Assembly (NCBI GenBank): GCA_003615045.1
Contig: ML014247.1
Location: 1-50,655, forward strand
Origin: Caulochytrium protostelioides
Lineage: Eukaryota; Chytridiomycota; Caulochytriomycetes; Caulochytriales; Caulochytriaceae
Direction of reading: 5' to 3'
Length of the DNA stretch: 50,655 nt
Shown: positions 20,868-50,541 of the stretch, in pieces
How positions within the stretch are numbered: the first letter of the stretch is position 1
How the letters are laid out: each line of letters opens with the position of its first letter
Made by a program: the position numbers and the translations under genes
The notes under the pieces: generated by a model
What the model was told of the DNA's origin: nothing
Seen by the model: only the letters and a program-made list of their open reading frames with translations
Databases searched by the model: none

Positions 20868-22288
20868 CGTGGGCAGGCGTTAACTGTGGTCCGAGTCGTT
20901 CAATCGGGACAAAAAAGGTGGTGACACGTGTTAGTCGCCGTACGCACGTGTGTTGTCGGTCAGTGTCGCGGCGCGGAAGCAGTGGAGCAGGCCGGAATCG
21001 AGTCGAGTATCAGGATGCAGAGCGCCTCTTATAAACAGTCGTGAGGGCGGCCTGAGAGGAGAAGAACGGGGGAGCAAGCGACAGCGAGCGACAGCGTAGG
21101 GTCAGCGTAGCGCGGGGTGAGAGCGCGGGGCCACAAGAACACGGGACCCAGGACGATCCTCCAGGGGTATGCTCCGATGTCTAGACAACCTGGGTCCTGA
21201 CCACACGCGTGCTGTTGGCGGCGCCCAGCAGGCGGGCAGGCGGGCGCTCGCGTCGGCCCGAAGGCGCGCGGGCCTCCCGGGCTCCTCGTGCCACCGCGAC
21301 CCGCCAACGTGACGCTCCGTCCATGCACGCGGCCAACCTGGGTTCAGCCGTTCGGTGGCCGTCATCGAGTGTCCCCGCCGAGGTCCGCGTCTCGACTCGG
21401 CGAGCAGGGTCTCCCTCGCACTCCATGCCCATGCCTGCGGCAGCGGCGTCGGCGTCGGCGTCGGCGGGAGCGGCGGACGAGCGCGCATGCGCCTCGACGC
21501 CGTGGCGGAAGAGAGGGATTGGAGTGGACCCGCCCGTCCGCATGCGGCGGCGACACAGCGCCGCGCGGGCCCGCAGCCCGCCCGCGCTCGCGAACCCGTT
21601 CACGCCATTCCCCGTCCGCCATCCGCCGTCCGTTGCGTCGGCGGCGATAAGTCGTCGGGGGTGTTGTGTGCCATCCGCCCTCGCACCCGCCCTCGCACCT
21701 GCGGCCGTCGCCATGGCTGCGTCGGCGTCCGCTCCGCTCGTGCGCGCCGCCGCGCTGACGACCCTGGCGGGCGGCGATGGTCCTCGCCCACGACTGCGCC
21801 CACGCCTGCGCTTGCTCCTGCTACCCCTCGGGACCGAGGCACCGCGTCGCAGCCCCTTTCGCACCGAGAAAACCAGCCAGGCGGGGGGTCCGCCACTTTC
21901 TTCATCCGAACGATGCTGAGCGAACGACGCTGCGCGGAAAGCCGGGCAGACTCCGAAGCGGGATTCCGACAAGCCGCGACTCAGCACCGCGGAACGTGCT
22001 GCGCCACAGTCGAATCGTTGACGATGACGGAAACGTGGTCGGTCACTTCAAACGCATATGTGTCGCGGTCGCATCGTGACTATCGTATCGTGCGTGATGT
22101 CCATCACGCATCGCTGCGATACCGATCGGGTCAAACTAATAGGGCACGAAGGGCTCGTGAAGGTAAAGACATGAGTAAAATGTGATAACATCACGTTGAC
22201 GCAACGTTGCGATTTTTGTGCGGATGCTTGTTAAATCATGCTCAAGCGATGCTTCGACGGCGTGGAGGACGTCGTCGAAGCTGCCTGA
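20868..22288. other. Intergenic region between eIF2-gamma and the decayed Fanzor; no recognised gene
   Basis: An 800-bp GC-rich island (about 21180-21990) is open in several frames on both strands, with a (GCGTCG)-type repeat near 21450. Mutually overlapping frames of 236-276 codons there lack any domain, so I do not call a gene. The AT-richer end (22050-22288) leads into the Fanzor remnant. Confidence 0.5.
21028..21033 (-). promoter_or_regulatory. TATA-like box upstream of eIF2-gamma
   Basis: TATAAG read on the minus strand, about 160 bp upstream of ATG 20867. Position and orientation fit the eIF2-gamma promoter; no other evidence. Confidence 0.4.
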
Positions 22289-23684
22289 CCTGACCTGAAT
22301 CTGAGCTTTTATCAGCAGCTCATGCTGGGCGGCGCGGGCGCCAGGAAGCCAGAGCCTTCCGTGCGCGACTACTATCGGGACTACCCACAGCTGGCGGCCA
22401 GACTGCCTACGCAGCGCCACCTCAACGATACAAATATATACGTCGCAGGCGCCAAAAAGTACAGGACCAACCTGTTCAATCACTTCCAGCTAAGCTTTGG
22501 AACGCGCTCCGTCGATCTGAAAAGTATAAAAAAGGGGCCACCTCGATGCAAATCCCGATCATGGACATTCCCTCGTGATGCATACTCTCCCATGATAGCA
22601 CACGCATATATCATAAAATAATATGACTGCATCCAAAATCATCACGATCGACACCCTCGTGCTCCATGCCATGTTGGTGGAGCTCAACCTGCCACTTCAA
22701 GACCCTCAAGGTCATGACCCCGCCAGAGCGGAGGGCGGCCGCCCTGGCTTTCCGTAAGCTGGAAGGCAAGGATCACATGTTCACCGGTACCATCGATAGC
22801 GATGGGACCAGCATGTGCGTCCACTTTGTGCGAAAGAAGAAGGTGGCCGACGCCGTGCCGATTGTCACGGCGACCCCCGGGGTCACGACCTCCTTGCTTG
22901 TCAGCCCCGATCAGGCTGAACAGCCTCCGGAAGATGAAGCCGCGCTAGGCGAGCCCGGGCTTTCAGCTATACAGTGGCAATCAGCGCGTGTTTGGCCAGT
23001 TCTCAGACCGCGTCGCTAAGGGGCTGGCCACGGCGATGAAGCCCGTCGTCGCTGAAGTGGTGGCCGCTTATGGCGCGGCTAAGTTTGCCCCCGGCGGCAA
23101 GGGCGACATCCCTGTTTCAGCCGCTCGCGCGTATAAGGCGTGCGCCCAGCGCTTCGGCACCGTCCTGGTCGACGAGCTCCGCACGACCCAGATGCATGCC
23201 GGGACGAATGACCTCCTTGTCAAGGTGAGACACCGGGACCCGTCGAAGGTGCCGATCTCTCCCGCGTCCCGGACGAGTGTTCCTCAAATCGCGCCGACGG
23301 CCGTCCTGGTCCGCACGTCCCGGTCAGGCGCTCGCTTGATCGCGCCGACGCGGGTCAACCCGCCCCGCCGTGCTCGCGCGGGCGCTTCCCCGGCCGAGCC
23401 GACGCCGGCCACCCCGGTCGGCAAGACCCGGGTAAACGCCCAGACGCAAGTGGTCCTGAAACCGAGTCAACATCGGCGCCAGGGAACCCTGGCCCGAGGG
23501 TTCCCTGTGGTATGAAGCTACCAACCGCAATGAAGCCACCCACAGCAAGTTGGTGAACCGCGACCTCAATGCCGCGCTGGACATCCGACAATGTGTGGTC
23601 TTATCGGGAAGACCGAAGGCGTTGTGCCGCAACCCCGGGCAAACCCCACTGCCGTCCAAGGACGGCAAAGTCATCCGACACTGA
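22289..23684 (+). pseudogene. Fanzor (eukaryotic TnpB-like, RNA-guided nuclease family), decayed copy
   Basis: Homologous pieces lie in order but in different frames. The N-terminal segment SFYQQLMLGGAG...AKKYRTNLFNHFQLSFGTR is at about 22304-22511. A segment with IDTLVLHAMLVELNLPL starts near 22645. FTGTIDSDGTSMCVHFVRKKK, the pre-RuvC 'TDG' block, is near 22780-22842. The RuvC-II region with AYGAAKFAPGGKGDIP and VDELRTTQMH is at 23065-23198, and SKLVNRDLNAALDIRQC (RuvC-III) at 23547-23597. The last two are separated by one extra base near 23501-23505: deleting it would make RGFLWYE run on into RDLNAA. No RuvC-I aspartate block is visible between the TDG block and RuvC-II. The copy therefore looks dead as a nuclease. 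Family assignment follows from motif order; the C-terminal half is nearly the same as the second copy at 50 kb. Confidence 0.8.
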
Positions 23685-23771
23685 ACCGCGTGTCTGCCTC
23701 GGGAGGGGCCCCCACCGAGGGCATGGTGAGCGCCTTGACTCAATGTACGACCGCGTAACAAACAGGAGGGA
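23640..23771 (+). ncRNA. Candidate guide (omega) RNA region of Fanzor copy 1
   Basis: Sequence around and past the stop (TGA 23682) is shared with the 3' flank of the other Fanzor copy. Shared pieces are CATCCGACACTGAACC across the stop, a TGCCTC...GGGCATGG block at 23695-23726, and TACGACCGCGT followed by an AAC/AGGAGGG-like run at 23746-23770. Bases 23695-23723 fold into a stem (UGCC-UCGG paired with CCGA-GGGCA, one bulged G) around a G-rich/C-rich loop. Fanzor and TnpB guide RNAs are encoded at this 3' position and end at the element's right boundary. Transcription is not shown by the sequence. Confidence 0.5.
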
Positions 23772-24093: not shown

Positions 24094-27000
24094 TCAGGAC
24101 CAGACATCACTCGAGACGAGGGTCGGACGCATCGCTTCGCCGGCCGTCGACGCCGAACCCGGCAGGGAGGGCGGCGGCGGTCCGGCACGGCCGACGGGGC
24201 TGCGCAGACGCGACAGGCCGGCTGGATGGTGTGGGACGCCGGCGGCGGCCGAGGCGGCGAGGGACGGCGACGAAGCGGCCGGTCGCGTTGAAGCCATCGC
24301 GAACGCGTTCATACCGCATCCCGGCGGGCCGAGTAGTCCCGGTGGCCCGAAAGGCGTCGATGCGAGGGACGCGCCGGCGGCCGTGTGTCGAGGCGGCGGG
24401 CCGAGCGCCACGCCATGATGCGGCGTGAGCCGGTGCGGCGACGGGTGGCCGAGGAGGCCGCCACGATGCAGGGCGGGCGGCGCCATGGGTACGGATGGAG
24501 CGGGTGCTTGCGCCTGGGCGAGGCGCATGCCGGCGCGGGCGCCGAAGCCGCCGAGCGGCGGGCCGTCGGGCCCGCAGAGGGCGTGACCGAGACCGCCCAG
24601 ACCGTCTGGGGGCGCACTGGCACTCGCGTGGCCGCCGGGCGGCACGGCGGAGGGCGTCATACTTGGGTTCGGAAGCGCGGTGTCCGAGACGCCGTGCAGC
24701 GGCGCCATGCGCGTCTGCGCGGCACTGCTGCTGCTGCTGCTGCTGCTGCTGCCGAACGCGTCGTATGGACCAGCGAGCGGCGGCGTGGCGAGACCGCTCA
24801 GACCGCCCAGCGCGCCAGCGCCGGCAGTCGCGTTCGTGGGATGCGCACCCGAGAGACCCGAGTGCAGCGGCTGTCCTGGCGCGCCGAGCGGGTTGAGTCC
24901 GCCGTGGTGCAATGCATGGCCGTGGTGGCTGGGCAGGTCGCCCATGGGGCCGCTATGGCCATGGCCTCGGCCATGGCCGTGCAGGGGGCCGTGCGCGGGG
25001 TGGAGCGACGGATGGGCGAACGCGGCGCTCGCACTGGCGCTGAACTCGGAGATGCTAAACGCGCTGGGGCGCAGCCCCGGCGAGCTGTGCGGATGCGAGT
25101 CGCCGTGGGGCCCGCCGAGCGAGGCGAGCGGCGATCGCGACAGGGGCGGCGCGAGCGACGGCGCGAGCGACGGCCCGTGCGACGGGATCAAGGTTTCACC
25201 AAAGAGGTGAGTCGAAGACCGGCGGGCGCCGTTGCCGCTGAGGCCACTGCCAAGGCCACCGCCGAGTCCGCCGCCAAGTCCGCCGCCGAGGCCGCCGAGG
25301 CCGCCGAGCCCAAGCCCGCTCATGCTGCGGCTCATACCAAACGGCAGGTCGCGGGCGCTAGGCGGCGAGACGACACGGCTGTTAGCGTTCGTGGCGGCAG
25401 TCGGCGTGCTCAAGCTGGTCGGAGCCGTTCCCGGCGGGAGCAGCGTGGGGTCGTCGGTCGTCGCTTTCCGCATGCCGCCGACGCCGACCGAACCACTGCC
25501 GCCGTCGTCGTCACAAAAGTTGGCGACGGACGCGGCCCACGGCCCGAGGGAGGCACCGGCGCCGTCGAGTGACATGGGACTGGGCGACCAATGGCGCGGC
25601 GGCACGTTGGAGACGACGGCGGCGTCTGGTGACAGGCCCATCGGAAGATGGCGTGCGCCGACGCTGCTGAGGCCGACGCCGACACCGACACCGACGGCGA
25701 CGCCGAAGCGCTGCGCACCGGGTGCGAGCTGGCTGCCCGAAAGACTCCCAGAGAGGCCGCCAGCAAGGCTGCCGGAAAGACTGCCCGGGAAGCTGGACGA
25801 CGCGGGGATGTCAAGTGCAGTGACGCTTGTCGTAGCCGCTGAAGAAGCCGCCGTTGTCGTCGCCAAAACGGATGCCGTCGTGGCGGCGGCCGTAGTCAAG
25901 GGCACGGGCGCGATGGCGCGACCGAAGGGATCATCGAAGGCAGGGCGGATGCCGCCGGCGCCGGTGCCGGTGCCGGCATGGCCTGAGACCGGCGACGGGG
26001 AGAGGCCCGGCGGGCCAGCGAGACGAGTGCCAAACACCGACCCTTGGCGCTTGTCCACGGAGCCGTACGGAGCGGCGGCGGCGGAGACGGTGGTCGGCGC
26101 CATCGTGAACGGCGCAAGCGATAAGGGCGTCAGAGGAACGACGGCGGCGGCCGTGGTGACCAGGACCGGCCCGAGGGGGGCGGCGGTCTCGGCCACGGCA
26201 TGCTCGACGGCCGCGAAGCCGGCGAGGCCGGGCGGACGGGCGAGACCGGCGGGCGAGAGACCGGCAGGCGCCGAGAGGCCGCCGCCGCTGGTCCCAGTGC
26301 TCCCTGGATGGCTGAGCGGCGGATAGGCCGCGTCCGGCAGCGCGCGCGGCGTCGCTAACGGCGTCAGCGATCCACGGCGGGCGCTGGCCCATGTGGACGG
26401 GTCAAGGCCGGGAGGCGGCTTGATAGCGGCGCTGCCACCACTCACACTTCCGGTGATGGAGGCCGTGGCGGCGATGGCAGTGACGGGGTACACCATCGGT
26501 GCGCCAGAGCGCGAAGAGACGCGAGCAGGCACGACCGCAGCCAAGGGTGCAGCCGTCGACGAGGCCATCGTGGCCGACGGGCGTTGAACATAGTACTCGT
26601 GCGGAATCGGGATTTCCGGTGAGGCTTCGCCCGGCGAGCAATTTCCTGGCGCCAACGCGGTGGTGGTCGCAGCAGTGGCCGCCGTGGCCGACGGCAACGG
26701 CGACGCAAGGACGGGCGTCAGCGTGGCCGGAAGCCCGAGCGGCTTTGTGGCCGTGCTTTCCGGCTTGGCGGCCACCGGTTCAGTCTTCGAGGACGCCTTC
26801 GTTGTGACCGGCGTCTCGACGATTGGCGCGGCGGCAAGCACCGGTGCGGGCGTGAGCGCCGGTGCCGGCGTCGGCACAGTCTTCGCTTCCTTGGATTTCG
26901 TCTTGCGCTGACTGCCTTTCGGGTGCGCGGTGGGCGCCGGCGCGGAGGGTCGCGGCGTGAGAGCCGGCCACTCCGCTTCCCGTGACGCGGCGGCCACGGC

Positions 27001-30000
27001 AGCAACGGCCGCGGCAGCGCGGTCAGCCGGTTGCGGCGAGGCCGCTGCGTCAGGATCCGCGGTGGCGGTGATGGCCGCCCAGGGACCGGGCGTGGCGGCC
27101 ACGGCGGCGACGGCGGTGGCCGGCTTCGTGGCGGGCTGCGCGGCGCCATTCTTAGCTGTCTCGGCCGATGCCGTCTCGGGCTTGTCCTCGGACGCGGCGT
27201 GAGCAGCCGTGTCGCCGGCTGTCCGTTTCGTCGTGCTGACGCTTGGGGCGGCGGCGGTGCGCATGGGAGCCACGTGCTGGCGGGCCGAGACAGGTTCCGC
27301 ATGGCGCAGCTGCTGCTTGGGCCCCTTGCCCTTGCCCTTGACGGGGTTGAGGCCTGGAATGACCTTGGGCGGCGGAGGCGGCGGCGGGGGTTTGGCGACA
27401 GCGGCCGGCACACTAACGATCTTGGCGGACTCTTTGGCGTCGCGCGAGGCTTTGCCGCTCGTGACATCAACGAGGGGCTTGGCCAGCCCGGAACTTGGTT
27501 TCGCCTGCTGCTGCTGCTGCTGTTGCTGCTGCATGAGCTTGGTCTTGAAGGTCGGGTGAAAGGCCAGCAGATCGGCTTCCGAGAGCACATCTACTTCGCC
27601 GTCCGAGTCCGCAGCTACCGGCTTGCTCGTCCTGGGCGTCGCTTGCGAGGCGGGAAGATGGGAGCGCTTACGATCAACGGCCCGCTTCGCCTCCCTGGTC
27701 TCCTGGGCCGCTTTGACGAGCAACGCGGCGTCGGCCGCTTTCTTGTCGGTCACACGCTTTGTCTCGGCGGCGGCAGCTTGCTTGGCCGCTTCTTTCGCCT
27801 GCGCGGCAGCGACCTGAATCGCCTTTTCGGCTTGCTTGGCTTCGGCCTTTTGGGCTGCTTCTTTCGCCAGCTTCGCAGCGTGACGCTCAGCCTTGAGAAG
27901 CGCTTCCTTCTCTGCCGCGCGCTGCGCCGCGTCGCGTTTTGCTTGAAGCAGAGCTTCTTCTTTGGCACGCGCTTCTTCGCGAAGCAGCTGAAGTCGCTGC
28001 TCGCGCGCCTTAGCGACCTTGTCCTGCTTCTTGCCCTTGCCGCGGGCCTTCAGGGCGCGGCTCTGGTTCTCCTCGGCCTCAAGCTCTTTAAGAAACTGCT
28101 CGCGGCGCTGTTCGGCGGCCCAGGCGTGGTAAGCGGCCATCACGCGGAGCTCGAACATGCGGGCCGCAAAGACCTGGAACATCCGGCGGCCCTCGTCGAT
28201 CCGCTGCGCTTCCATCATCTTGTAGCGGTTCGGGTCCCCGAACACGGCGCGGCGGATCTCCTCGTCCATGTCCACTTCACGGCCTGGCAGTTCGTCGTCG
28301 TCTTCGCCGTCTTCGTCATCGTCGTCGACAAACTGGCCGTCCTCCTCCTCGAATTCGAGGAAATCACCGCTGTCCACGCGCGGACCCGCCGTCGAAGAGT
28401 CCAAAAAATGGGCCGCATGGTGCGGGTGGGTGTGGGCATGCGGATGCACGTGGCCCATCACGCTCGTACCACCGCCCGTCAAGGGGTCCCCAAACAGGGG
28501 GACCCCATGGGAGTGGGAGTAGTGATGCGAGTGATGGGGATCCATCGCGGCCGGATCAGAGCCATCCATCGGATCGAGCGGATCATGTAGAGGCGCATGG
28601 TGGTCGTGCTCGCCATACGCCATTAGGTGGCCGTGCGCGTGGTGGTCATGGTGGTAGTGCGCGCCATGCGGATGCGACGCCGCGACCGCGGTCGGGTCCG
28701 CTTTTGCAGACAGCATGCCACCGTGCGAGGCGGCATACGCGGCAGGGTTGTGGTACAGCAAGTGATGGCCGTGAGCAATGTTTTCTTCGTCCACATACGC
28801 ATCGTCGTCGTCGTCTTCGGGTAAAGCATCGAGATCTTCGCCCAGGTAGGCGCTCGCGGCGGCCATGTACGAACGGTACTGTGTCAAGTCCGCTTGGTTG
28901 AGCTCGTTGTCTCGATCCAGATGGTACAAGGCCGGCGTCATCATGCCCTCTAGATGATCCGGCGGCGGCGCGAGAGACGCAGCGGCGGTGCCATGCTGAG
29001 GGTGGCGATGGTGCGACTGTGAGGCGGACGCACACACAGCCGGCAGAGTTGTCGCTGTAGCTGCCGGCGCCGAGGACGCCTCACCCGGTGCATGGTGGCG
29101 GTGATGGTGATGGTGATGGTGATGATGAGCCGGCGGGGGCGGCGGAGGCGGCAACGTGGAACGATGTGTCGCGTGTCCGCGGCCGTGAGCGCCGAGACCA
29201 TGGTGCCCCCCGTAGGCGAAGTCGGTGTCGAGGCCGTGGACATGGCGCGTCGGCGGCATGGGCGGCGCCACGATGGGCGGGTCGGCGGAGTGCGAGGCGG
29301 GCGAGGCCGCAGGCGAGAGGTCGTCGTACGCCGTCTGGCCGTGCAGCGGCGTCGCGGTCCGGGGCGGCAAAGTCTTCGAAGCCGGCGGATGGGCGGCTTT
29401 GCCATGCTCGTCCGCGGCGGGCAGTGCGTGGGGCGAATCAGCGGCCGCATCGGCTTCCAGCTTGCGGAGTTTGCGCTCCGCCACGCGCTCCATCAGCTCG
29501 ATGAACTTGCGACCGTCGTTTTTAATGAAGTCCTCGGCGACGTTGAAGACGCCGCCAAATTCGGAGGCCGCCAAGTCGGCCACCACCTCCGGGTGGTCCG
29601 CATAGTCGCTCTCCCAGAGCGCCGCGTCCTGGAGGTAGGCGCTCGACTGGGGCACAAGCGCATCGCTCTCGAGCATCAAGCTCGAGTCGAGCGGCTCGCC
29701 CGCTTCCTGCTGCCGCTTCTGCAGTTCGAGGTGCTTATTCGCGTAATGCTTCAGCTCCTGGTAGTACGCGTCATAGAGAATGTTGAGCTCTTCCACAATG
29801 ACGGCTTGCTTCTTGCCGCACACAGCGCAGTCGCACGCTTGGCGCTGCTGGTCCTGAATCTTTTTGAGAATGGCTTGCTTTTCCAGCTCGACGAGATGAC
29901 GGCGTTCGGACTCCGAGAGGCCCAGCCAGTATGCTTGCACTTGACGCTTTTCTTCCTCGGCCGGCGTCGCCCACACCGTATGCACCGTCGTGTCACCGTC

Positions 30001-33000
30001 TTTGTGCTGCTGGTGCTGCTGCTGGTGGTGTTGGCTGTGGTGCGACCGGTGCACGAGATGAGGGTCATCATGCTGGCGACGCGCATGGTAGTGCTTCGCG
30101 TGGCTGCCCGAGGCATGCTTGACTGACGACGATGACGATGACGCCGGCGCCGCAGCGGTTGACGATGAGGTTGCCGGCTTCTTTTGTCGCGACTGAGACG
30201 GCGGCGGCGGCGGGTGGGCATGCGAATGGGCCGGTGAATGTGATACACGGGCGTTGCTGCCGCTGGTGCACGTCGCGACGCGCGGCGGCGCCGGGGCCGG
30301 GGCTGGAGCCGAGAAGGCTCCCACGGGGTGGGGGCTGTGGGTCGCTGTGCTGACGGGCTGAGGCGGCCCCGCTGAGGGTGCCGCCGGGTAGCTCCCGCCG
30401 CGGTGGTGGTGCAGATGGCGTGCATGCGCGGGCGCGGCGTAGGGATGCGCATGACCGTGGTGATGGGGCGGTGGCGGCGCAGATCCCGACGGGTGCGGAT
30501 GCGGATGCGAGTGCAAATGCGAGTGACTGTGCGCGTGCATGTGGTGCGGATAGGCCGCATGGGGGTTCGCGTGGTGGGCGGCGTGGTAACTAGGGTGAGG
30601 CATCCCGCGACTGCTGGACGCCATGGCCTCGCCGTCGGCGGACGAGCGCATGAAGGCGGGCGCCGATGTGGGCGGCGGCGGCGCCGTCGCGGCCGACCGG
30701 GACGTCGCCGTTTCGGCTGCTGTGGTCGTGGGCAGCGTCCGAGGTGCGCCCGTCGTCGGGCCCGTCATCGCCGGCATCGATGCCGTGGATGCCAAGGTGG
30801 TGGCGGCGGCAGCCGCGGCGACGGTGGCGGGACGGAACGTGGTCATGACCTTCTCGAAGTGTTGAAGGAACAAACGCATCGTGGCTTGGCGCGTGATGTT
30901 TTGGGTTGAAGGCGCATGCGTCAGGTGGTAGCGGTTGGCTTTGACGTGACCGGAAGCCGACCCGGACGCGGCGACGACGCCACTCTCGCTCTTGCCGGCC
31001 TTGCTGCGGCCGATGTTGCTGCTGCCGCTACCCGCAGGTGGGTGGGGGTGGGGCGGTGGCAAGGGCATGGCGGAGGCGCCGTCGAGGAAAGGGTTCTGCG
31101 AGAAAGCGACCCAGCGCGGAAGGTGGGTGGTATGCTGCTCAACCGAATACGGCGGGGACTTGGCGAACTGGTACAGGGTGTAGGACGACATGCGGAAGAG
31201 ACCTGTTGCGCCGGCGGCCTCGCGGACATTATTGAGCGTCTCGGGCTGCTGCAGCCGCTGGCGCTGGCGGTATTTGGACTTGATAAACGCCAGCTTCGCC
31301 AGACCCGACTCATACTCGACGAACACGCCGTATTTGTGCCGAATGTCGCGGACCCACTCGGGGGCATCGTGGTCGACAATCATAAGCGCCACGGTCGCCT
31401 CCATGATCGCAAAGATGCTGCGCTCCATGGCGTGCGGCGGAACCTGGCCGTCCTCATTCACCGGTACATCTAGCGTGATCAGCGTAGATCGCGGCTTGGA
31501 CGAGGGTGATGACGAGGTCGAGGAGGAGGACGCCGAGGACGCGGCAGCGCCGTCCCTCGACCCTGATGACTTGCCGTTCTCGGTTACTTCGTGCTGCGAG
31601 GTCTGGAAAGGCCGTGCCATTTCGCCTTTCGTGGGCGTTGCAAACAGATACGCGATGTCGCGCGTCGGACGGACGCGGCCGTCACTGCCCGCTTCGCTGC
31701 GCGACTTGCCGTGTTTCACAGGACGATCACCGCTCGGGATCCCGGTTGTGGCCTCGGCGATCAGCTCGTGCGAGAGCGGCGCGCGGCCTGGATAGCACGA
31801 GGCGGCATCCACCATGCGCGCCGGGATGTTGTGGCGCAGGAAGCTGACCAGCTTGGGCGACGCCATCTTGGACAGTGCCGCGAGCAGCGGGTCATACGTC
31901 GGGAACATGGCGTGCTCCGAGAGCATGGTGCCCGCCGACGCCGACGCCGACGCGGCGGTACCACCCGGCGCCATCACGGTCTCCGTCGTGGCCGCGCCGG
32001 ACGCGTTGACGGCGTTCGTTGACGACCACAGGATCGTCGCCGCCGCCGCCTCCATGGCATCTGCGTCTTGCACGGGCGCGGCTGGGTCGGCATGAGGACC
32101 AGCCGCTGACGCTGGAGCAACCGATGGAGTAAGTGCAGGTGCGGACGTTGCGGGGGTATCCTGGGGCGACGACGGCGATGATGACAGCTGATGCTGGTGC
32201 GGCTGCACCGGCGATTCGGCCGATTCGGCCGAGACCGCCGCGGCTTCGCGGCGCTCTTCCTGGTGCTGCAGCTCCTGCAGCTCGTTCTGTTGCTGGGCGA
32301 GCGCCTGCAGCGCCGCCGCGGTGCTCTTGATGCGGCCGCGGGTGAACGCGCCCAGCGCGTCCGTGATGGCGGCGTTCACCTGAGGGATGACCTTCAGCTC
32401 GCTCGCACGCGCGAGAGCGTACGGGTTGACCATCCCGTCGTACATGTGGGCCGTTGCCAGCATAACCGACAGCGTTTGCATGGCTTCCTCCACGATATCG
32501 GGCGGGAGATGGCTCATGGCCGAGTCTTCGGATGGCAGGTCTTCATACAGATCGCTGTCGTCGTCATCATCTTCCGCGACCTCGATCACCTCGTCGGCGT
32601 CGCCACCGGCACCGGTCGGCGAAGGGCGTCCAGGCATGGCAGGTCCGGCCGGTGGTGCAACACCATCCGATGGGGCTTCGAGTGGTGCATCAGCATCAGC
32701 AGCAGTACCCACCGGCGTGGCCGCTGCGGTGGTGGGGGCTTGGACGTGTTCTTCGAGACACTCTTCCTCTTCAATGACCTCTTCAAACTCGAACACGTGG
32801 CGCGTCATACTGGACGTGGTGCAGATCGAGGTAAAAATGTCGAGAACAGCGTCGAATTCGGCCGAGAGCAGGAACGCGCGGGTCGCTAGTGTCGTCCGCA
32901 TCGTGATGGTCGTAAACGTCGAGAGCGCCGCAAGCTGCAGCGATGCCGTCGGACTGAGCGTCATCACGATGGGAGTCCGCGACGTCGGCAGCAGCAGCGT

Positions 33001-35760
33001 CAGCGCGATGGCGGGCAAGCCGGTCGAGGTCGTGCTGACGATCTCGTACTGAAACCCTGTGGCGATCGCGGTCGCGAGCATAATCGACTCGTGGTTCGAG
33101 CCCCACTGCATGAGGGCGGAGGGCTTCAGCCGGCCGGTGCCATAGATCCACTCACCCTCATGGGTGTACAGCCACTTGGCCGACGCCACCTCGCTGTCGG
33201 TCAGCAGCGCGTGTGACAGCGGGGGCACCGTCGTGGCGGCGGTCCAGGCGGCGTGCAGCGAGTCGAAAGTCCGCTCGGACGCGGCTTGTGAGACGGCCTC
33301 CATCTCGGACAGGATCACGCGGAACAGCGGCTCGAGCGAGGATATGGACGCGAGATCGGGCCGCGTCGGCATCGCGTCCAACGTCATGGTCGTCGTTTGA
33401 AGCGGCGAAGGCGGCGCAGGCTCCTCTGCGATCGAGGTGGCAGGTGCAGGCGTCTGGGACGCTGCCGGCGCCGTGACGGCGTCGGCCGGTTTGCTTGCCG
33501 GCACGGCAGCCGCGGCGGCATCGGTAGCGGCGGCATCGATGGCTGATGACGCCTCGCAAGGACTTGGGGTCGCTGGTCGCGATGCGCCGGGCACCACGCT
33601 TTCAGACGCAGACGGCTGCGGCGGCGCAGTAGGAGGCGCGGGCAGAGCAGGCGGAGCCGAGGACGACGAAGCGCCGCCTGCGGCGTCCACCGTGATCGGT
33701 GCTTCGGATGGCGATGCATCCTGGGCTGCTGCTGATGCGGATGCGGATGTGGGTGCACATGCGGGCGCAGGAAGGTCACTGAGGGTGGCGGGGACACCCC
33801 GCCCCATGGCCACGGCAGTGACGGGGGGCATCGGGGGCGACGAGGCCTTCGCCAGCTCGCTGGCGGTGCTGCCCGCGGGCGCCGCGACGTCTGGGATGCT
33901 GTCCGCAATGCCCATGAACGAACGGACCTGCGCCGCAAAGTCGGGCTGTTTTAGCAATTTCTGGGTCACGTCGATGATCCGCTGCGTGATGGCCTCCGAC
34001 ACGTCGACGTGCTGGAGCGGACCCATCTCGAGCACTTGTGACAGCGCGCCCTGCACGAGCTCCGGCGGGTACAGCGGCAGCACCGACTCACGGCGGCTCA
34101 GCAGGTCCGCGACCGACGCGAAGTGATCCTCGAGCTTTTGCAGCGACGCGACGATCGTGGGCGGCATCTCCCGCGGCATGACGGGTGGCTGGTCCAGCGA
34201 GTGGCTTGGCCCCTTACTCGGGCTCGTCGGCGCCGTCGTCGCGCCGCGGGCCGGCGACGTGACCGCCGAGCCTTTCTCGGACAGATCCGACACCATCGAG
34301 GTCGCATCGCACGACGCCGGCGGCGACGCCGTCGCAACGAGCGATGGCACAGCCAGCGACGTCGTGACCGACGGCCCTGGCGCGGCCGCAGGTGATGGAG
34401 CCGCAGGCGATAGCGACGATGACGGCGACGCGGCGGCGGTCGTCGCGCGGGACTCTTTGCTCGCGAGCAACGACAGAGTCGTAGACTTGGTGCCGTCCCG
34501 GCTGACCACGACTTTGTGCCGTGGTGCCGGTGTGGCGCGGCGCGGCGGGCTGCTCGGGGTTGCTGTTACACCGGGGACGGGCCCAGACGTGGCCGTAGGC
34601 GAGATCGGCGCCGAGGGCCCGGCCATGGCCGTCGCGGCCGGTGCTGGTGCCGTCGTGACTGGTGTTGGTATCGACGGGGTCAGCGACGACGAGGTCGCGG
34701 TGAAGGGCGGTGGCGGGACGCTGGACCCCTCGGACGCTTCGGCAGCAGCCTTCAAAGCGGCGATCGTCGCGTTGATATACGACACGGAGGCCGAGACGGC
34801 CGCCGTCGCGGAAACCGATGGCGATGGCGACGACGATGCCGATGCCGATGCCGATGCCGATGCCGTTGCCGATGCCGATGCTGGGGCGTGGGTCTCGCCA
34901 GCGTCGGCGCTTTCCATGACGCGAGAGGCGGCGAGGGCCGAGATCATCTGAGGGTTAATGATGGGCAGAAGCTGCTGCGCCGCAAGCGGCATGCCCGGCG
35001 GCACGGGAGCCTGCATCTTGGCGGCCTCGGCGGCGGCGGCAGCAAACTGCGGGCCCTCCACGAAGTCGGAAAGCCGGGACATGTCGGTCTGCGAAAGGCA
35101 GCCCTCCTCGGAGACGCCGGCCTCGGCGAGCTGGAGATCGACATCGATGACCTCGGCGAGCTGGGCGGGCGTGAGCGGGGGGCGGTCGGGGAACATGGCG
35201 CTGGCGATCTTCTGGATCGCGGCTTGGCTCAGCTGGTAGATGGGCGGGGTGGGGTCCATCGCCACGGCCGGCGCGAGCGGCGCGGCGATCGCGGCGGACG
35301 GGTGCGGGACGGGCGCCGCTGCAGCCGACGCCGATGCGCTGCGCGACGCCGACCGTGGTGGCGGCGCGGGTTCCAGGCCAGCCGGCGATGCGGAGGTCTC
35401 GGCGGCGTCGTCAAGAAGAAACAAAGGCGAGTCATTCACGAGCGCGAGAATCTCCTCGATGGGCACGGGCGCGCGGCGCGTCGCGGGGGTCCCGGGCGCG
35501 GAGGTCTCGGATGCCGTGAGCGGCGCCGCAGCCACGGCGGTGGGCATGGCCGCGGGTGATGATGATGCTGATGATGCTGATGATGACGGCGGCGGCGGCG
35601 AGGCGGAGGCCGGTGGTGCAGTCGTGTGGCTCGTGGCGGCCGGATGCAGTCTCGCAGCCGCGCTCGCACGGGGGGCCGCGGTCGCGGTGGCCGCGACGGC
35701 AGCGGCGGCGGCCGTGGCAGCGCCGTGGCGGTGGCCGCGTCGCCGGTGGCCCGGAGGCAT
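24094..35760 (-). CDS. NST1: Giant NST1-family protein (stress-response NST1 homologue), single 3888-aa frame
   Basis: One uninterrupted frame, ATG 35760 to TGA 24094. The NST1 core lies centrally. LSESERRHLVELEKQAILKK, then CDCAVCGKK and ELNILYDAYYQEL, fall at about residues 1940-2005. EDFIKNDGRKFIELMERVAER is at about 2077-2097 and EGRRMFQVFAARMFELRV near 2520. A charged coiled coil with KxEKE-type repeats runs to about 2715. Around this are very long Ala/Ser/Pro/Thr-rich tracts, His-rich stretches (about 1700-1920 and 2190-2440), poly-Gln and poly-Ser. A conserved-looking folded patch of unknown family lies at about 790-1000 (SLHAAW..., EGEWIYGTGRLKPSALMQWG). Fungal NST1 proteins are normally about 1000-1500 aa and modulate salt tolerance and P-body/mRNA functions. 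The size is exceptional. Fusion with an upstream gene is possible, since the N-terminal 1500 residues have no NST1 counterpart I know of. Confidence 0.8.
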   Translation of the reverse strand: MPPGHRRRGHRHGAATAAAAAVAATATAAPRASAAARLHPAATSHTTAPPASASPPPPSSSASSASSSPAAMPTAVAAAPLTASETSAPGTPATRRAPVPIEEILALVNDSPLFLLDDAAETSASPAGLEPAPPPRSASRSASASAAAAPVPHPSAAIAAPLAPAVAMDPTPPIYQLSQAAIQKIASAMFPDRPPLTPAQLAEVIDVDLQLAEAGVSEEGCLSQTDMSRLSDFVEGPQFAAAAAEAAKMQAPVPPGMPLAAQQLLPIINPQMISALAASRVMESADAGETHAPASASATASASASASASSSPSPSVSATAAVSASVSYINATIAALKAAAEASEGSSVPPPPFTATSSSLTPSIPTPVTTAPAPAATAMAGPSAPISPTATSGPVPGVTATPSSPPRRATPAPRHKVVVSRDGTKSTTLSLLASKESRATTAAASPSSSLSPAAPSPAAAPGPSVTTSLAVPSLVATASPPASCDATSMVSDLSEKGSAVTSPARGATTAPTSPSKGPSHSLDQPPVMPREMPPTIVASLQKLEDHFASVADLLSRRESVLPLYPPELVQGALSQVLEMGPLQHVDVSEAITQRIIDVTQKLLKQPDFAAQVRSFMGIADSIPDVAAPAGSTASELAKASSPPMPPVTAVAMGRGVPATLSDLPAPACAPTSASASAAAQDASPSEAPITVDAAGGASSSSAPPALPAPPTAPPQPSASESVVPGASRPATPSPCEASSAIDAAATDAAAAAVPASKPADAVTAPAASQTPAPATSIAEEPAPPSPLQTTTMTLDAMPTRPDLASISSLEPLFRVILSEMEAVSQAASERTFDSLHAAWTAATTVPPLSHALLTDSEVASAKWLYTHEGEWIYGTGRLKPSALMQWGSNHESIMLATAIATGFQYEIVSTTSTGLPAIALTLLLPTSRTPIVMTLSPTASLQLAALSTFTTITMRTTLATRAFLLSAEFDAVLDIFTSICTTSSMTRHVFEFEEVIEEEECLEEHVQAPTTAAATPVGTAADADAPLEAPSDGVAPPAGPAMPGRPSPTGAGGDADEVIEVAEDDDDDSDLYEDLPSEDSAMSHLPPDIVEEAMQTLSVMLATAHMYDGMVNPYALARASELKVIPQVNAAITDALGAFTRGRIKSTAAALQALAQQQNELQELQHQEERREAAAVSAESAESPVQPHQHQLSSSPSSPQDTPATSAPALTPSVAPASAAGPHADPAAPVQDADAMEAAAATILWSSTNAVNASGAATTETVMAPGGTAASASASAGTMLSEHAMFPTYDPLLAALSKMASPKLVSFLRHNIPARMVDAASCYPGRAPLSHELIAEATTGIPSGDRPVKHGKSRSEAGSDGRVRPTRDIAYLFATPTKGEMARPFQTSQHEVTENGKSSGSRDGAAASSASSSSTSSSPSSKPRSTLITLDVPVNEDGQVPPHAMERSIFAIMEATVALMIVDHDAPEWVRDIRHKYGVFVEYESGLAKLAFIKSKYRQRQRLQQPETLNNVREAAGATGLFRMSSYTLYQFAKSPPYSVEQHTTHLPRWVAFSQNPFLDGASAMPLPPPHPHPPAGSGSSNIGRSKAGKSESGVVAASGSASGHVKANRYHLTHAPSTQNITRQATMRLFLQHFEKVMTTFRPATVAAAAAATTLASTASMPAMTGPTTGAPRTLPTTTAAETATSRSAATAPPPPTSAPAFMRSSADGEAMASSSRGMPHPSYHAAHHANPHAAYPHHMHAHSHSHLHSHPHPHPSGSAPPPPHHHGHAHPYAAPAHARHLHHHRGGSYPAAPSAGPPQPVSTATHSPHPVGAFSAPAPAPAPPRVATCTSGSNARVSHSPAHSHAHPPPPPSQSRQKKPATSSSTAAAPASSSSSSVKHASGSHAKHYHARRQHDDPHLVHRSHHSQHHQQQHQQHKDGDTTVHTVWATPAEEEKRQVQAYWLGLSESERRHLVELEKQAILKKIQDQQRQACDCAVCGKKQAVIVEELNILYDAYYQELKHYANKHLELQKRQQEAGEPLDSSLMLESDALVPQSSAYLQDAALWESDYADHPEVVADLAASEFGGVFNVAEDFIKNDGRKFIELMERVAERKLRKLEADAAADSPHALPAADEHGKAAHPPASKTLPPRTATPLHGQTAYDDLSPAASPASHSADPPIVAPPMPPTRHVHGLDTDFAYGGHHGLGAHGRGHATHRSTLPPPPPPPAHHHHHHHHHRHHAPGEASSAPAATATTLPAVCASASQSHHRHPQHGTAAASLAPPPDHLEGMMTPALYHLDRDNELNQADLTQYRSYMAAASAYLGEDLDALPEDDDDDAYVDEENIAHGHHLLYHNPAAYAASHGGMLSAKADPTAVAASHPHGAHYHHDHHAHGHLMAYGEHDHHAPLHDPLDPMDGSDPAAMDPHHSHHYSHSHGVPLFGDPLTGGGTSVMGHVHPHAHTHPHHAAHFLDSSTAGPRVDSGDFLEFEEEDGQFVDDDDEDGEDDDELPGREVDMDEEIRRAVFGDPNRYKMMEAQRIDEGRRMFQVFAARMFELRVMAAYHAWAAEQRREQFLKELEAEENQSRALKARGKGKKQDKVAKAREQRLQLLREEARAKEEALLQAKRDAAQRAAEKEALLKAERHAAKLAKEAAQKAEAKQAEKAIQVAAAQAKEAAKQAAAAETKRVTDKKAADAALLVKAAQETREAKRAVDRKRSHLPASQATPRTSKPVAADSDGEVDVLSEADLLAFHPTFKTKLMQQQQQQQQQAKPSSGLAKPLVDVTSGKASRDAKESAKIVSVPAAVAKPPPPPPPPKVIPGLNPVKGKGKGPKQQLRHAEPVSARQHVAPMRTAAAPSVSTTKRTAGDTAAHAASEDKPETASAETAKNGAAQPATKPATAVAAVAATPGPWAAITATADPDAAASPQPADRAAAAVAAVAAASREAEWPALTPRPSAPAPTAHPKGSQRKTKSKEAKTVPTPAPALTPAPVLAAAPIVETPVTTKASSKTEPVAAKPESTATKPLGLPATLTPVLASPLPSATAATAATTTALAPGNCSPGEASPEIPIPHEYYVQRPSATMASSTAAPLAAVVPARVSSRSGAPMVYPVTAIAATASITGSVSGGSAAIKPPPGLDPSTWASARRGSLTPLATPRALPDAAYPPLSHPGSTGTSGGGLSAPAGLSPAGLARPPGLAGFAAVEHAVAETAAPLGPVLVTTAAAVVPLTPLSLAPFTMAPTTVSAAAAPYGSVDKRQGSVFGTRLAGPPGLSPSPVSGHAGTGTGAGGIRPAFDDPFGRAIAPVPLTTAAATTASVLATTTAASSAATTSVTALDIPASSSFPGSLSGSLAGGLSGSLSGSQLAPGAQRFGVAVGVGVGVGLSSVGARHLPMGLSPDAAVVSNVPPRHWSPSPMSLDGAGASLGPWAASVANFCDDDGGSGSVGVGGMRKATTDDPTLLPPGTAPTSLSTPTAATNANSRVVSPPSARDLPFGMSRSMSGLGLGGLGGLGGGLGGGLGGGLGSGLSGNGARRSSTHLFGETLIPSHGPSLAPSLAPPLSRSPLASLGGPHGDSHPHSSPGLRPSAFSISEFSASASAAFAHPSLHPAHGPLHGHGRGHGHSGPMGDLPSHHGHALHHGGLNPLGAPGQPLHSGLSGAHPTNATAGAGALGGLSGLATPPLAGPYDAFGSSSSSSSSSAAQTRMAPLHGVSDTALPNPSMTPSAVPPGGHASASAPPDGLGGLGHALCGPDGPPLGGFGARAGMRLAQAQAPAPSVPMAPPALHRGGLLGHPSPHRLTPHHGVALGPPPRHTAAGASLASTPFGPPGLLGPPGCGMNAFAMASTRPAASSPSLAASAAAGVPHHPAGLSRLRSPVGRAGPPPPSLPGSASTAGEAMRPTLVSSDVWS
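27505..27531 (-). repeat. Poly-Gln codon tract (9 codons) in NST1
   Basis: Nine consecutive CAG/CAA codons on the coding strand, in the linker C-terminal to the coiled coil. Confidence 0.9.
29092..29127 (-). repeat. His-rich codon tract in NST1
   Basis: Alternating CAC/CAT codons encode a run of nine His, an Arg, and two further His (preceded by Ala). The alternation of synonymous codons suggests selection on the His run, or an old repeat rather than fresh slippage. Confidence 0.85.
34835..34882 (-). repeat. Hexamer repeat (GATGCC)n encoding Ala-Ser in NST1 N-terminal region
   Basis: Eight near-perfect 6-bp units with one GTTGCC and one GATGCT variant. On the coding strand they give alternating Ala-Ser. 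The same hexamer type recurs in the TUG-like gene. Confidence 0.9.
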
Positions 35761-44177: not shown

Positions 44178-47100
44178 TCATGCAAGCAGCGGGTCCAGCG
44201 CATCAAGCGGCACAAACCGGCACTGGCGAAGGATGGCTGCATCTCGCGGAAACGCGTAGTCGTACTGGACATCCTGCAACGTCATCCACAGCTTGAACTG
44301 CTGCGTCAGGGTCGCGACGCGCTGGAAATCGATGCTGTTTGTCTGGCCCGGGCGCTTCGCGCACCCGAACGAGGCGGCGCCCATAGCCATCAGCGGCAGC
44401 CAGAAGGTGCCGACGAACGGGACGGCGCCGGATGCCGGCGTCGTGGGAGCTGCCGCGTCAGGCATCGTGGGTGCAGCTGCGTCCGGCGTTGCGAGCGCCG
44501 TCGGCGGACGCGACCGCGTGCTCGACCGCGACACCGGCAGATCCCGCGTCGACCGGGACGGCGACGCCGTCCGCGCCGCCGGCGGCGCCACGATCCAGTG
44601 CATCATCTCGCGGCGCAGGCGCTCGAAGCCGCGCTGCGGCGCGACGAGGTACGCCATCGCCCACAGCGCGGACCGCGTGCGGTCGGCCAGCCCATGCCAG
44701 ACCGCGCCGGGCGACGTCGCGAGCCCGATCGTGCCTTGCCGGCGGTTCGCCGCAGCGCCTCCCCCGGCGCTGGTCAGTATCGCCGTCGACGGTGCGGGCG
44801 ATGCCGCTGACGCGCGCAGCCGCGGCGTCCGGAGCAGCGCCGTCACGATCGCGAACAGCGTGCTGGCGTTTCGGTAGCGATAGCACCGCTGCGCCACGCG
44901 CACGAGTTTCTCGACTAGCCGGACGCACTCGTCGTTGCCCTCGGCGCGAGCGACGGCATCGAGGACCCACGCATGCACGCCCGCAAGCTGCATGAGCCAG
45001 CGGTCGGTGCCCGCAAAGTCAGCATGATCCGCGCACGCCGTCGTGGTCGCGAGCGGCGTCGTTGACGGCATGCCGTCGGCCCCTGCGGGCGATGCCAGGA
45101 GCCCACCGTTGCCGCCATCGCCGTTGCTGCTGCTACTGCACGGCCCTTCGAGCGCGCCGTCTCGCCGCCACCGCGCCGCCATCCGCAGCAGCTCGATCCA
45201 GTCGATCGCCTGGAACAGCGCGCGGTCGAGCAGGCAGAGCTGCTGCGCCACGATCTCGGTCCGCGCCGCGAGCAGCCACGACGGCGGCGCGGGACGGTGG
45301 CGCAGCGAATGGTGCGCGCGCAGCGACGATGTCTGCTGGAACTGCCGCTCGACCAGCGGCATGAAGGCGTTGCCGGCGAAGGGGCCCGGACCCGCGCCCG
45401 TCGGGCTCGTGGCCTCGCGCGGACCGCAGGCGCGCGTCGGACGCGCCTCGATGTTCGCGTGAGCTGCCTCGCCGTCAGCGTGATCGGCATCGCCGTCGTC
45501 ATCGCTAGCGCCAGCGGTGGCACCCGGCGACCCCTCCGGCAGCGCGGCCATCGCGCCGCCTGAGGACGACGGTGACGGCGTCGTAGCGCCGGCGGCGGCG
45601 GGTGCGCGGCCGCCAAAGAAGGAGAGACGCTGCGGGAGCCGGGAGCCGAGCCGGCGGTGCCACACGGCGCGCGGCGCGCCGGGCTCCGGCAACATCTCGC
45701 CCGCGTCCATGGCGGCGCCGGCCGTGTCTGGGGTCGACGTCGGCGAGAGGAGCGCCGGCGAGGGCGCGGCGAGCGGCGACGGCGTCGCGCCGCGCGCTTC
45801 TTCGTGGTGCACACGGTGGCGCGGTGCGGCCGCCGTGCCGAGCGCTGGGTCGGCGGGAGCAAGCGACACGGGCCGGGTCTTGCGGGCGCCCGCGGTGTTG
45901 ATGCGCAGGTGTGGCAGCAGCCGCCGATGGCGGGGTGGGTGTGTGCCGACGGGCGCCGAGGGTGAGGGCGACGCGGCCGCGGCCGACGGCGCGGTCGCTA
46001 CGACGTCGATGCCGCGGGCGGTGGCGTCAACGGGCAGCGAAGCAGGGGAAGGAAAAGCCCGCGTCGGCGATGAGGTGCTAGAGAGGGGCGGAAGGTCGGG
46101 ATGCTCGGGAGTATGCGGATCCGCGAGCATCGGTGTCGGGGGCAGCGCGAGGGGCTGATGCCGATCATTCGAGACTGAAGCAGGGGTGGCGGCGCTGATC
46201 GCCACGGCGTCAGCGGTGGCGGCCTCGGCGTCAGGGGTGTTGGCGGCAGCGGCAGCGGCAGCGGCGGTCGCAGCCTCCATGGCGTCACGGGAGCGAAGCG
46301 CCGTCAGACGGTCCAGGCACTGCCGGTGCTCGTGGTGGACGACGGCGTCGTCTGGTGCCGACTGGAAGACGGGGTGCTGCGGCAGATACAGCGTGAGGAA
46401 CGCATCGAGATGGCCGACGAGCGACGGGTCATGCGCAAAGTCGATCGGCCAGTAGTTATGCAGCCAGTAGCCGATCAGATGGATCCCGAGGGCGAGCCGT
46501 TCATACGTAGCGAGGGCGGCGGCGTCAAGGCGGGCCATGTCGGCACGGTCCACGTGGTCCAGCACGCGGCGCAAGTGCCGCATCACCAGCCGCGCAACGC
46601 GCAGTGGCGACGTGAACTGTCGAAACCCAAGAAAAAACATCTCCACAAACGTCTGGCTGTCGCGTTCGAACAGCGCGAGCACCGCGCCCTCGAGGGTCGC
46701 CGCCGAGACGTATCGGCCTTGCGATGCCGGCGCCGGGGGCCACCGCAGCGTCTCACGCAGGTCGGGGAATGCGACCAACAGCTGCTCCAGCGGCGTCATC
46801 GCTTGCATAAACGCCGTCACCAACTGCGGATGTCGGCCCATCGGAGGGCCGCCGCCCTGGGGTGACGACGGCGACCGCAGCTGCGGCGTCAACGCCGACG
46901 CCGGCGTGCCGGCCACCGTGGTCAAGGACGATGCTGTGGCCGCCGGCATGTCCCAGCCAAACATGCGGCTCAAGACTGCCATCTGCGCTGCGGTCGCTGC
47001 GAGTTCCGGCGACGCTGTTATGGCGCGCGGGCCCGCGTGCCGCGGGAAATGGTAGAAGGACCGCCGCACAGGATCCGTCGTGCCGTCGACGGGCGACGGC

Positions 47101-49680: not shown

Positions 49681-49756
49681 GCTCATATATATAGACCCGG
49701 GACGTGCTCAGATATATAGGCCCTTCCTTTTGTTTAACGCGGTCGTATATAAAGGC
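49681..49756. repeat. Three TATATA-containing short repeats flanking Fanzor copy 2
   Basis: GCTCATATATATAGACCC, GCTCAGATATATAGGCCC and a related GTATATAAAGGCTC lie within 76 bp, the first two 26 bp apart. They are immediately beyond the conserved 3' motif of Fanzor copy 2. Each contains a TATA-like hexamer reading in the plus direction. Confidence 0.7.
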
Positions 49757-49860
49757 TCATCCTGGCACCTCACGCGCACGCCATGCCCGCGGTGGTGCCC
49801 TGGGGGTTCCCCACAGAGGCAGTGGCGCATTTTGGTTCAGTGTCGGATGAGCTTGCCAAC
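49722..49860 (-). ncRNA. Candidate guide (omega) RNA region of Fanzor copy 2
   Basis: Read on the minus strand, this holds the same landmarks as the 3' flank of copy 1: CATCCGACACTGAACC over the stop codon, a hairpin at 49821-49796, GCGGGCATGG, and TACGACCGCGTTAAAC ending in AGGAAGGG. The hairpin is UGCC...GGCA outside and UGGGG/CCCCA inside with an AAC loop. Its inner stem differs in sequence from that of copy 1, but the outer pairing is the same. The spacing from stop to second motif is 89 nt here against 62 nt in copy 1. A structured 3' RNA is inferred; expression is unknown. Confidence 0.5.
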
Positions 49861-50541
49861 CTTGGGCTGCCACCTGGTTGGCTCGGGGTGACAGCACAAC
49901 GCCTCCGGTCTGGTGAGTAAGGCCAGGCAGCGTCGGATGTTCCACGCGGCATTGAGATCGCGCGTCACAAACTTGCTGTGAGGGGCTTTATACCACAGCA
50001 AACCGCGCACCACGATCTCCTGGCACCGGCGTTGGCCGGGTTTCAGGACCATATTCGTCTGGGCGAACACCCTGGTCTTGCGGACTCGGTTGACGGCCGT
50101 CGGCGCGGCCAGGTAGGCGTTCGTCCGGGTGTTGCGGGCGGGGTTGACCCGCGTCGGTTCGGTCGAGCGGGCGCCCGTCCAGGACGCAGGAGAGATCGGC
50201 ACCTTCGTCGGGTCCCGGTGTCTCACCTTGACAAGGAGGTCTTTCGTCCCGGCATGCATCTGGGTCGTGCGGAGCTCGTCGACCAGGACGGTGCCGAAGC
50301 GCTGGGCGCACGCCTTATACGCGCGAGCGGCTGAAACAGGGATGTCGCCCTTGCCGCCGGGGGCAAACTTAGAGGCCCCATAGGCGACCACCACGGGCTT
50401 CATCTCCGTGACCGCCCCCTCGGCGATGCGGTTCAAGAGCTGAGCAAGTTCTTGCTTTTGTATAGCTGCAAACGCTGACGTGCCCAGGTCTCGCTGGTCA
50501 GACCAATAGCGCTGTGCCGCACATCCGGGCAAGGTCAGCAT
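49837..50541 (-). CDS. Fanzor (eukaryotic TnpB-like nuclease), C-terminal part, second copy at window edge
   Basis: Intact 234-codon frame from ATG 50541 to TGA 49837; in frame, a TAA lies upstream at 50604-50602. Visible motifs are RYWSDQRDLG, VVVAYGASKFAPGGKGDIP, TVLVDELRTTQMHAGT and RGLLWYKAPHSKFVTRDLNAA, then WNIRRC. These are the RuvC-II and RuvC-III landmarks of Fanzor, and the Glu of DELRTT and the Asp of RDLNAA are present. The usual CxxC zinc-finger pair after DE.RT is replaced by TQMHAGT in both copies. A full Fanzor is about 500-700 aa, so this is only the C-terminal third. The rest is either in another frame or exon, or disrupted, beyond the window end. In other frames 50545-50655 gives short open peptides but no certain RuvC-I. 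Confidence 0.78.
   Translation of the reverse strand: MLTLPGCAAQRYWSDQRDLGTSAFAAIQKQELAQLLNRIAEGAVTEMKPVVVAYGASKFAPGGKGDIPVSAARAYKACAQRFGTVLVDELRTTQMHAGTKDLLVKVRHRDPTKVPISPASWTGARSTEPTRVNPARNTRTNAYLAAPTAVNRVRKTRVFAQTNMVLKPGQRRCQEIVVRGLLWYKAPHSKFVTRDLNAAWNIRRCLALLTRPEALCCHPEPTRWQPKVGKLIRH

Follow-up and report, generated by a model that had tools for sequence, protein, structure and literature searches.

What is the block of sequence that lies across and beyond the stop codons of two Fanzor genes in Caulochytrium protostelioides, and does it encode a structured guide RNA (an omega RNA), as had been proposed from the letters of the DNA alone? The window, by which we mean the whole stretch of DNA analysed (50,655 nucleotides of contig ML014247.1), contains the block twice, and we refer to the two occurrences as copy A and copy B (Table 1). 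We identify both window blocks, by sequence comparison, as the right end of a Fanzor1 transposon family that has many copies in C. protostelioides. The sequence observation that started this work is partly confirmed, and its interpretation as a guide RNA is partly supported.

The two window copies

The block across the stop codon, CATCCGACACTGAACC, is present in both copies, and with up to two mismatches it matches the window twice, versus 0.01 matches expected. The terminal motif TACGACCGCGT lies 3' of both genes and has two exact occurrences in the window; with one mismatch it has five, versus 1.18 expected, so that the motif alone is weak and becomes notable only beside the block. As the sequence-only reading had it, the C-terminal tails diverge (LSGRPKALCRN versus LLTRPEALCCH), and a UGCC/GGCA hairpin can be drawn in copy A as well as in copy B. 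The block is present at 23682..23771, where that reading placed it, but the conserved part is larger and begins upstream of the stop. A profile of the right-end family, at E-values up to 1, finds in the window only the two right-end blocks of Table 1. The covariance model scores the copy A block at 73.4 bits with cmsearch, copy A itself being one of the 62 training rows, and gives a third place at 39217-39320 (E = 0.4), which we take as chance. In copy A, GGACGGCAA occupies the position of GGTCGGCAA in most copies.

Table 1. Coordinates of the two Fanzor1 relics and their right ends in the window, and of inverted right-end copies at other loci (functions are predicted).
Feature	Position	Strand	Match
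Copy A, Fanzor1 relic, 5'-shortened	22239..23684	+	blastn to L031, L033, L037
Copy A, right-end block from ORF tail to terminal motif (candidate omega-RNA scaffold)	23656..23760	+	nhmmer 3e-17
Copy A, ORF-tail segment GGACGGCAA, proposed 5' strand of closing helix	23660..23668	+	
Copy A, stop-spanning block CATCCGACACTGAACC (stop TGA 23682-23684)	23672..23687	+	
Copy A, inner hairpin TGCCTCGG ... CCGAGGGCA	23695..23723	+	
Copy A, terminal right-end motif TACGACCGCGT, proposed 3' strand of closing helix	23746..23756	+	
Copy B, Fanzor1 relic, C-terminal half only (RuvC-II side to stop)	49837..50490	-	blastn to L031, L033, L037
Copy B, right-end block, candidate omega-RNA scaffold	49731..49865	-	nhmmer 5e-19
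Copy B, stop-spanning block CATCCGACACTGAACC (stop codon 49839-49837)	49834..49849	-	
Copy B, terminal motif TACGACCGCGT	49737..49747	-	
Inverted right-end copy	L033:1908-1972		
Inverted right-end copy	L041:956-1077		
Inverted right-end copy	L050:749-856		
Inverted right-end copy	L051:415-523		
Inverted right-end copy	L060:1791-1909		
Inverted right-end copy	L062:648-766		
Inverted right-end copy	L066:277-377		

Relative to fuller copies, copy A has lost 394-418 nt between 22932 and 22935, the RuvC-I part included, and it contains other sequence at approximately 22507-22640. By eye, this non-Fanzor stretch resembles sequence beside the Fanzor 5' part in locus L043, and is perhaps another small repeat. 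Copy B begins after the RuvC-I stretch. The catalytic set is thus absent from the window copies, and since both are without the RuvC-I region, neither locus encodes a working nuclease; we classify them, on their sequences, as dead Fanzor1 relics and not working members of the family. Two host genes lie near the relics, both on the minus strand: a 3888-aa ORF with an NST1 domain (24094-35760) and a 1358-aa ORF with RasGEF domains (44178-48254). The host assembly comprises 20.9 Mb, while the published single-cell co-assembly of C. protostelioides is given as 10.6 Mb in a source that also mentions an enrichment culture (PMC6784888). The 20.9-Mb assembly is therefore probably not the single-cell one, which would make amplification chimeras less likely.

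Identity and state of the gene

The gene had been read as a Fanzor, and a profile of its relatives places it in Fanzor1: profile A2, made from 10 relatives, matches the solved structures of Parasitella Fanzor1 (9cf0; 1.1e-15) and SpuFz1 (8gkh; 3.6e-8). D345, E504 and D557 (P0006 numbering) are invariant in the 10 relatives and aligned to Fanzor active-site motifs, and the RuvC catalytic D, E and D are accordingly present in the relatives, as assigned by alignment to Fanzor1. For family copy L006, read through its stops, a protein search returns 13 proteins, including CXG81DRAFT_23488 of C. protostelioides; in the ORF pieces of L006, VDEFRTTQ and NRDLNAALNI share a frame that differs from the frame of NDPGRTN. 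This read-through sequence by itself gives no match to the solved structures. The metagenomic proteins P0005-P0014 are 539-645 aa long and carry Fanzor motifs, and most are apparently complete.

The Fanzor1 branch of these relatives appears to be poorly covered by Pfam, since PF07282 either falls below the cut-off (4 of 8 proteins scanned) or is absent; the Pfam scan of both window pieces and P0001 returned no family. Some of the P-numbered proteins carry a precomputed PF26935 label, which the Pfam scan here did not return. The phage records gave no match, and no IMG/VR relatives were confirmed from 600 pattern stretches.

The loci analysed consist of 73 long ones and 74 stretches of 168-259 nt, the latter too short for an ORF. 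No intact Fanzor ORF was seen among the 73, in which the longest stop-free piece with the signature has 383 aa, versus 539-645 aa in the relatives. The RuvC-II part still shows coding constraint, with mismatches to the majority base of 0.111, 0.066 and 0.146 at codon positions 1, 2 and 3 (106 copies).

The right-end family and its boundary

The right-end pattern has 78 matches in the genome with up to two mismatches, and the terminal pattern has 42; the reversed controls have none. Copy counts for the family are lower bounds, because the DNA searches scored only the best 40 candidates per query (best 40 of 574, of 60 and of 163). A right-end match is carried by 104 of 106 sequences, all of which were chosen by a match to the Fanzor 3' side or end, and 92 of the 106 yield distinct and nearly complete right ends.

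Conservation does not end at the stop codon; an end there was the outcome that the sequence-only reading had named as telling against a guide RNA. Across the 92 copies, the majority base is conserved in the C-terminal coding tail at 0.83, and in the final 36 coding nt at 0.85. Past the stop, the values for the block are 0.88, 0.88 and 0.83; they drop to 0.70 in the terminal part, which is where the subfamilies differ, and to 0.35 in the flank. The conserved stretch begins approximately 26 nt upstream of the stop and ends sharply approximately 100 nt past it, and so overlaps the ORF by 8-9 codons (in copy A, 23656 versus the stop at 23682). In 60 distinct ends that share one type, information drops at the element end from approximately 1.3 bits to no more than approximately 0.1 over 8 nt. 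The most invariant positions are within the terminal motif, and from approximately 8 nt past GTTAAAC the flanks of the copies are unrelated.

By eye, the last 20-30 nt distinguish subfamilies that end in ACGACCGCGTTAAACTCAATAT, in CCGACCGTAAATAAATAT, in ACGACCGCGTTAAACAAAA, or without a motif but with repeats of TCAATATAC. Seven loci (L110, L116, L106, L109, L127, L079 and L084) end in an extra TCAATATAC-like unit, with a variable number of repeats. The right ends first looked ORF-less, because the query copy carries a deletion, and we considered them as ghost elements; this was rejected, since among the best 40 of 163 candidates Fanzor coding sequence lies upstream in 33 of the 34 right-end loci read by eye. 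L076 alone is cut just before the stop.

Folding and the closing helix

The sequence-only reading also held that foldability is preserved between the two copies, which is true of copy B but not of copy A. Copy B (49735-49863) folds with a z-score of -2.26, its ORF tail GGUUG pairing with CGACC. For copy A, the z-score is +0.39 at 23672-23757, where 133 of 200 shuffles are at least as stable, and +0.22 at 23656-23768, which spans the whole block (114 of 200 shuffles); the proposed closing helix is not formed. Subfamily A, examined by eye, is without the terminal CGACC, and part of the lower stem is lost.

For the family, the segment from the stop to the element end has a mean z-score of -2.04 under dinucleotide shuffles, with 52% of the 92 distinct copies below -2; 48 upstream coding controls have a mean of -0.73, with 10% below -2. 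The reverse strand of the segment is nearly as stable (mean -1.77, 40% below -2). RNAalifold with RIBOSUM scoring predicts a long hairpin of -43.3 kcal/mol, and with default scoring predicts no structure. The sole Rfam match is to SNORD66, on the opposite strand and far below the gathering score.

The predicted fold takes in coding nucleotides approximately 25 nt before the stop, and in these models it is closed by a possible pairing of ORF tail and terminal motif, a feature that is new here. At least four expected base pairs between tail and motif are found in 37 of 54 copies folded singly, nearly all of the 54 having B- or C-type ends. In two subfamilies, the duplex energy of tail and motif gives p = 0.006 and p = 0.003 versus mononucleotide-shuffled ends, a comparison carried out once the pairing was known. 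Such a helix would give TACGACCGCGT a reason for being kept. In the relatives, the last codons are conserved in the protein as IGK, so that protein and RNA constraint on the ORF tail are inseparable here.

Covariation and covariance models

Covariation was the check proposed for the guide RNA, and its outcome is divided: double changes are in excess over shuffles, but no pair is significant when the null is simulated along the IQ-TREE tree with site rates (92 sequences). Under this phylogenetic null, the best pair within the structure, U-A 42 / C-G 30, has an E-value of approximately 16, and the best pair of any kind, which lies outside the structure, has 0.6. Within the family, covariation is not expected and power is low, because the copies are alike and decay independently after insertion.

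The named structure, which was drawn from one training copy, was scored on alignment A3. This contains 62 of the 92 distinct right ends, namely those with a B-, C- or D-type terminus, together with copy A. In the 62 sequences, 87.1% of cells are paired, versus 86.0% in shuffles and 32-38% with slid partners. Cells with a double change number 27, versus 12.9 in shuffles and 14-27 in slid versions, and 14 of the 27 belong to a single U-A/C-G pair; nine pairs contain a double change, which is no higher than the 9-12 of slid versions. The covariation score is 0.109, versus 0.027-0.071 in slides. Stems differ from the consensus at 172 of 2351 cells (7.3%) and loops at 358 of 3769 (9.5%; p = 0.003, although the cells are not independent), as counted in 48 rows that are mostly B-type copies. 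Strand-asymmetric mutation was considered on account of 122 G>A versus 54 C>T changes in the B-type block, but the singletons are symmetric, and for this reason the G>A excess is probably shared ancestral variation.

A structured covariance model exceeds a sequence-only model on 27 of 30 held-out loci, by a mean of 6.9 bits, the two models differing in information content. It exceeds a model of equal information, slid by two columns, on 25 of the 30, and this mean gain of 6.2 bits is indicative only, because the effective sequence numbers of R1 and R3 differ (2.23 and 3.17). The held-out set comprises 28 of the 30 right ends outside A3 (L005 and L007 were left out) plus L013 and L027, and held-out L009 was read through the overlapping locus L038. 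Taken together, we regard the support for a conserved structure as moderate.

Termini, truncation and mobility

Upstream of the Fanzor 5' part, an inverted right end is found in seven of the 33 loci that have this part (Table 1), with best E-values per locus from 4e-14 to 0.005, which suggests that full-length elements may have inverted repeats. None was seen in the other 26, where the sequence upstream often reaches 1.5 kb or less. Four of the seven loci also match the L041 piece. The inverted piece of L041 also contains C-terminal coding sequence, and a similar inverted coding piece lies upstream in L036.

Copies are often shortened, on either side: the right end is present in at least 13 of 30 loci chosen by their 5' part, and the 5' part in seven of 26 right-end loci. 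L104, L108, L117, L128, L138, L143 and L076 consist of the right end only, cut inside or just before the hairpin and abutting unrelated DNA. Direct repeats of at least 8 nt occur at two of 37 automatically placed junctions, versus 1.6% for mismatched pairs; in this set L016, L020 and L034 had misplaced ends. An earlier set gave one of 28, versus 4.8%. L106, which is cut approximately 88 nt before its end, has a perfect 12-bp flanking direct repeat, TATGGATGCAGA, and L019 has an 8-bp direct repeat at its junction.

The 5'-shortened copies with a common 3' end (L076, L104, L106, L108, L117, L128, L138 and L143) suggested retrotransposition. We set this aside on several grounds: target duplications are not clearly enriched at the junctions; the five reverse-transcriptase loci read, of 19 RVT_1 matches, look Ty3-like by eye; internal deletions are not GT-AG introns, with one fit each in L033 and L126; and the right end is also often missing in loci chosen by their 5' part. 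A non-LTR retroelement would be expected to leave target site duplications where its copies are truncated and to have a reverse transcriptase as partner, and the junctions and the five RVT_1 loci read do not show this pattern. By eye, Ty3-like reverse transcriptase fragments lie on the same strand inside the Fanzor of L146 (C144) and upstream of that in L103 (C183).

What the block may be

From the sequence comparisons and predicted folds, we consider it probable that the block forms the right end of a Fanzor1 element and encodes an omega-RNA scaffold. The candidate scaffold is most likely approximately 130 nt long and includes the final 8-9 codons of the ORF; the unique flank that follows it would be the guide. 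The right-end stretch would be transcribed with or from the Fanzor mRNA, and the transcript would fold into a single long hairpin (UGA/UCA, CCG/UGG, GCGC/GCGC and CUUCGG/CCGAAG), with a closing helix between the terminal CGACCGCG and the ORF tail, which in one subfamily reads CGUGGUCG. Bound to this omega RNA, the Fanzor protein would take approximately the next 15 nt of flank as its guide and cut matching DNA beside a TAM. The window relics, whose own nuclease is dead, may at most supply a guide in trans. It is a quite improbable extension of this that the dispersed right ends (the 78 pattern matches), with a separate guide in the flank of each, act in trans as guide loci for a single Fanzor that has survived or been domesticated; the scaffold would then be held by the pairing of ORF tail and terminal motif, and stems would therefore still evolve more slowly than loops.

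The block might instead be a cis-acting transposon end only, that is, a terminal repeat with a palindrome that a transposase reads as DNA, with no role as RNA. The seven inverted right ends on the left side, which resemble terminal inverted repeats, are what such an end would predict, as are the near-equal stability of the reverse strand, the lack of significant covariation and the concentration of the most invariant positions in the terminal motif. Against it, the predicted fold extends into the coding sequence, and 26 of the 33 loci with a 5' part show no inverted right end in the upstream sequence examined, often 1.5 kb or less. Moreover, the corresponding stretch of known Fanzor1 elements is described as having both roles (PMC10432273; PMC10711439, where there is a folding prediction), so that a role as a cis-acting end does not exclude one as RNA, and we find the restriction to DNA rather unlikely. 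It is very improbable that the block is an ordinary 3' UTR, alike because the copies are young, with a hairpin that is incidental in GC-rich DNA (66% GC in the window). The copies do differ little, copy A is no more stable than its shuffles, and default RNAalifold gives nothing, but youth alone fails to explain the family z-score under dinucleotide shuffles, and the lower divergence of stems than of loops and the held-out gain of the structured model also speak against it. For the omega-RNA scaffold that we prefer, and for the proposal that a structured guide RNA overlaps the ORF end, the Fanzor1 gene, the location and the conservation past the stop hold good, while covariation answers only by half.

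Comparison with known Fanzor systems

In place, size and end, the block fits, by analogy, the known pattern of Fanzor1 omega RNAs, from which a transcript is inferred here; it differs in the predicted closing helix with the ORF tail and in how decayed the copies examined are. For other Fanzor1 genes, omega RNAs have been mapped to the interval between the ORF end and the element end (Saito et al. 2023, PMC10432273). In Spizellomyces punctatus, the region from the stop to the right end yields an RNA of 88-90 nt, consisting of a 75-nt scaffold and a 14-15-nt guide, and in Guillardia theta the omega RNA overlaps the last 17 codons (PMC10432273). Reported lengths of Fanzor1 omega RNAs lie between 75 nt, for PpFz1, and 150 nt, for GtFz1, and their first stem, of seven pairs, is shared (PMC11423790).

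A close likeness is to SpuFz1/Spu-1 of S. punctatus, as described in PMC10432273: the host is a chytrid, the Fanzor1 gene lies in a 2-3 kb element, a conserved stretch from stop to right end is followed by variable sequence, and there are partial copies, with Ty3 in some of the S. punctatus Fanzor loci. Spu-1 is reported there to have clear 30-nt inverted repeats, whereas here inverted ends occur in seven loci, and to have 19 full-length genes among 42 Fanzor loci, with 134 ghost elements, whereas no intact gene was seen here. Its 75-nt scaffold follows the stop, while the predicted scaffold here is longer and probably overlaps the ORF. In this it is like GtFz1, whose omega RNA of approximately 150 nt overlaps the coding end by 17 aa, compared with the 8-9 codons predicted for the present family; the GtFz1 RNA was established by sequencing and cryo-EM, and ours is a prediction (PMC10432273; PMC11423790). 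GtFz1 has four stem loops, versus one long hairpin and a closing helix predicted here (PMC11423790).

MCi-2 of Mucor and CMe-1A of Cyanidioschyzon are Fanzor1 repeats in which no inverted repeats could be recognised, as described by Bao and Jurka (2013, PMC3627910). The family resembles MCi-2 in that 3' regions are uniform and 5' regions differ, and CMe-1A in that the latter has about 150 copies of about 80% identity; target duplications of 11-12 bp are reported for MCi-2A and 2D, whereas one of 37 junctions here (L106) has a repeat of such size (PMC3627910).

In the papers searched we found no Fanzor of Caulochytrium, nor is the genus named in the main text of PMC10432273. The present Fanzor1 family, with its large copy number, is an addition for this chytrid lineage. 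Its many diverged right ends, within one genome, amount to a natural set of scaffold mutants, and the predicted helix between ORF tail and element end is a concrete, testable feature of an omega RNA that would overlap the Fanzor1 ORF.
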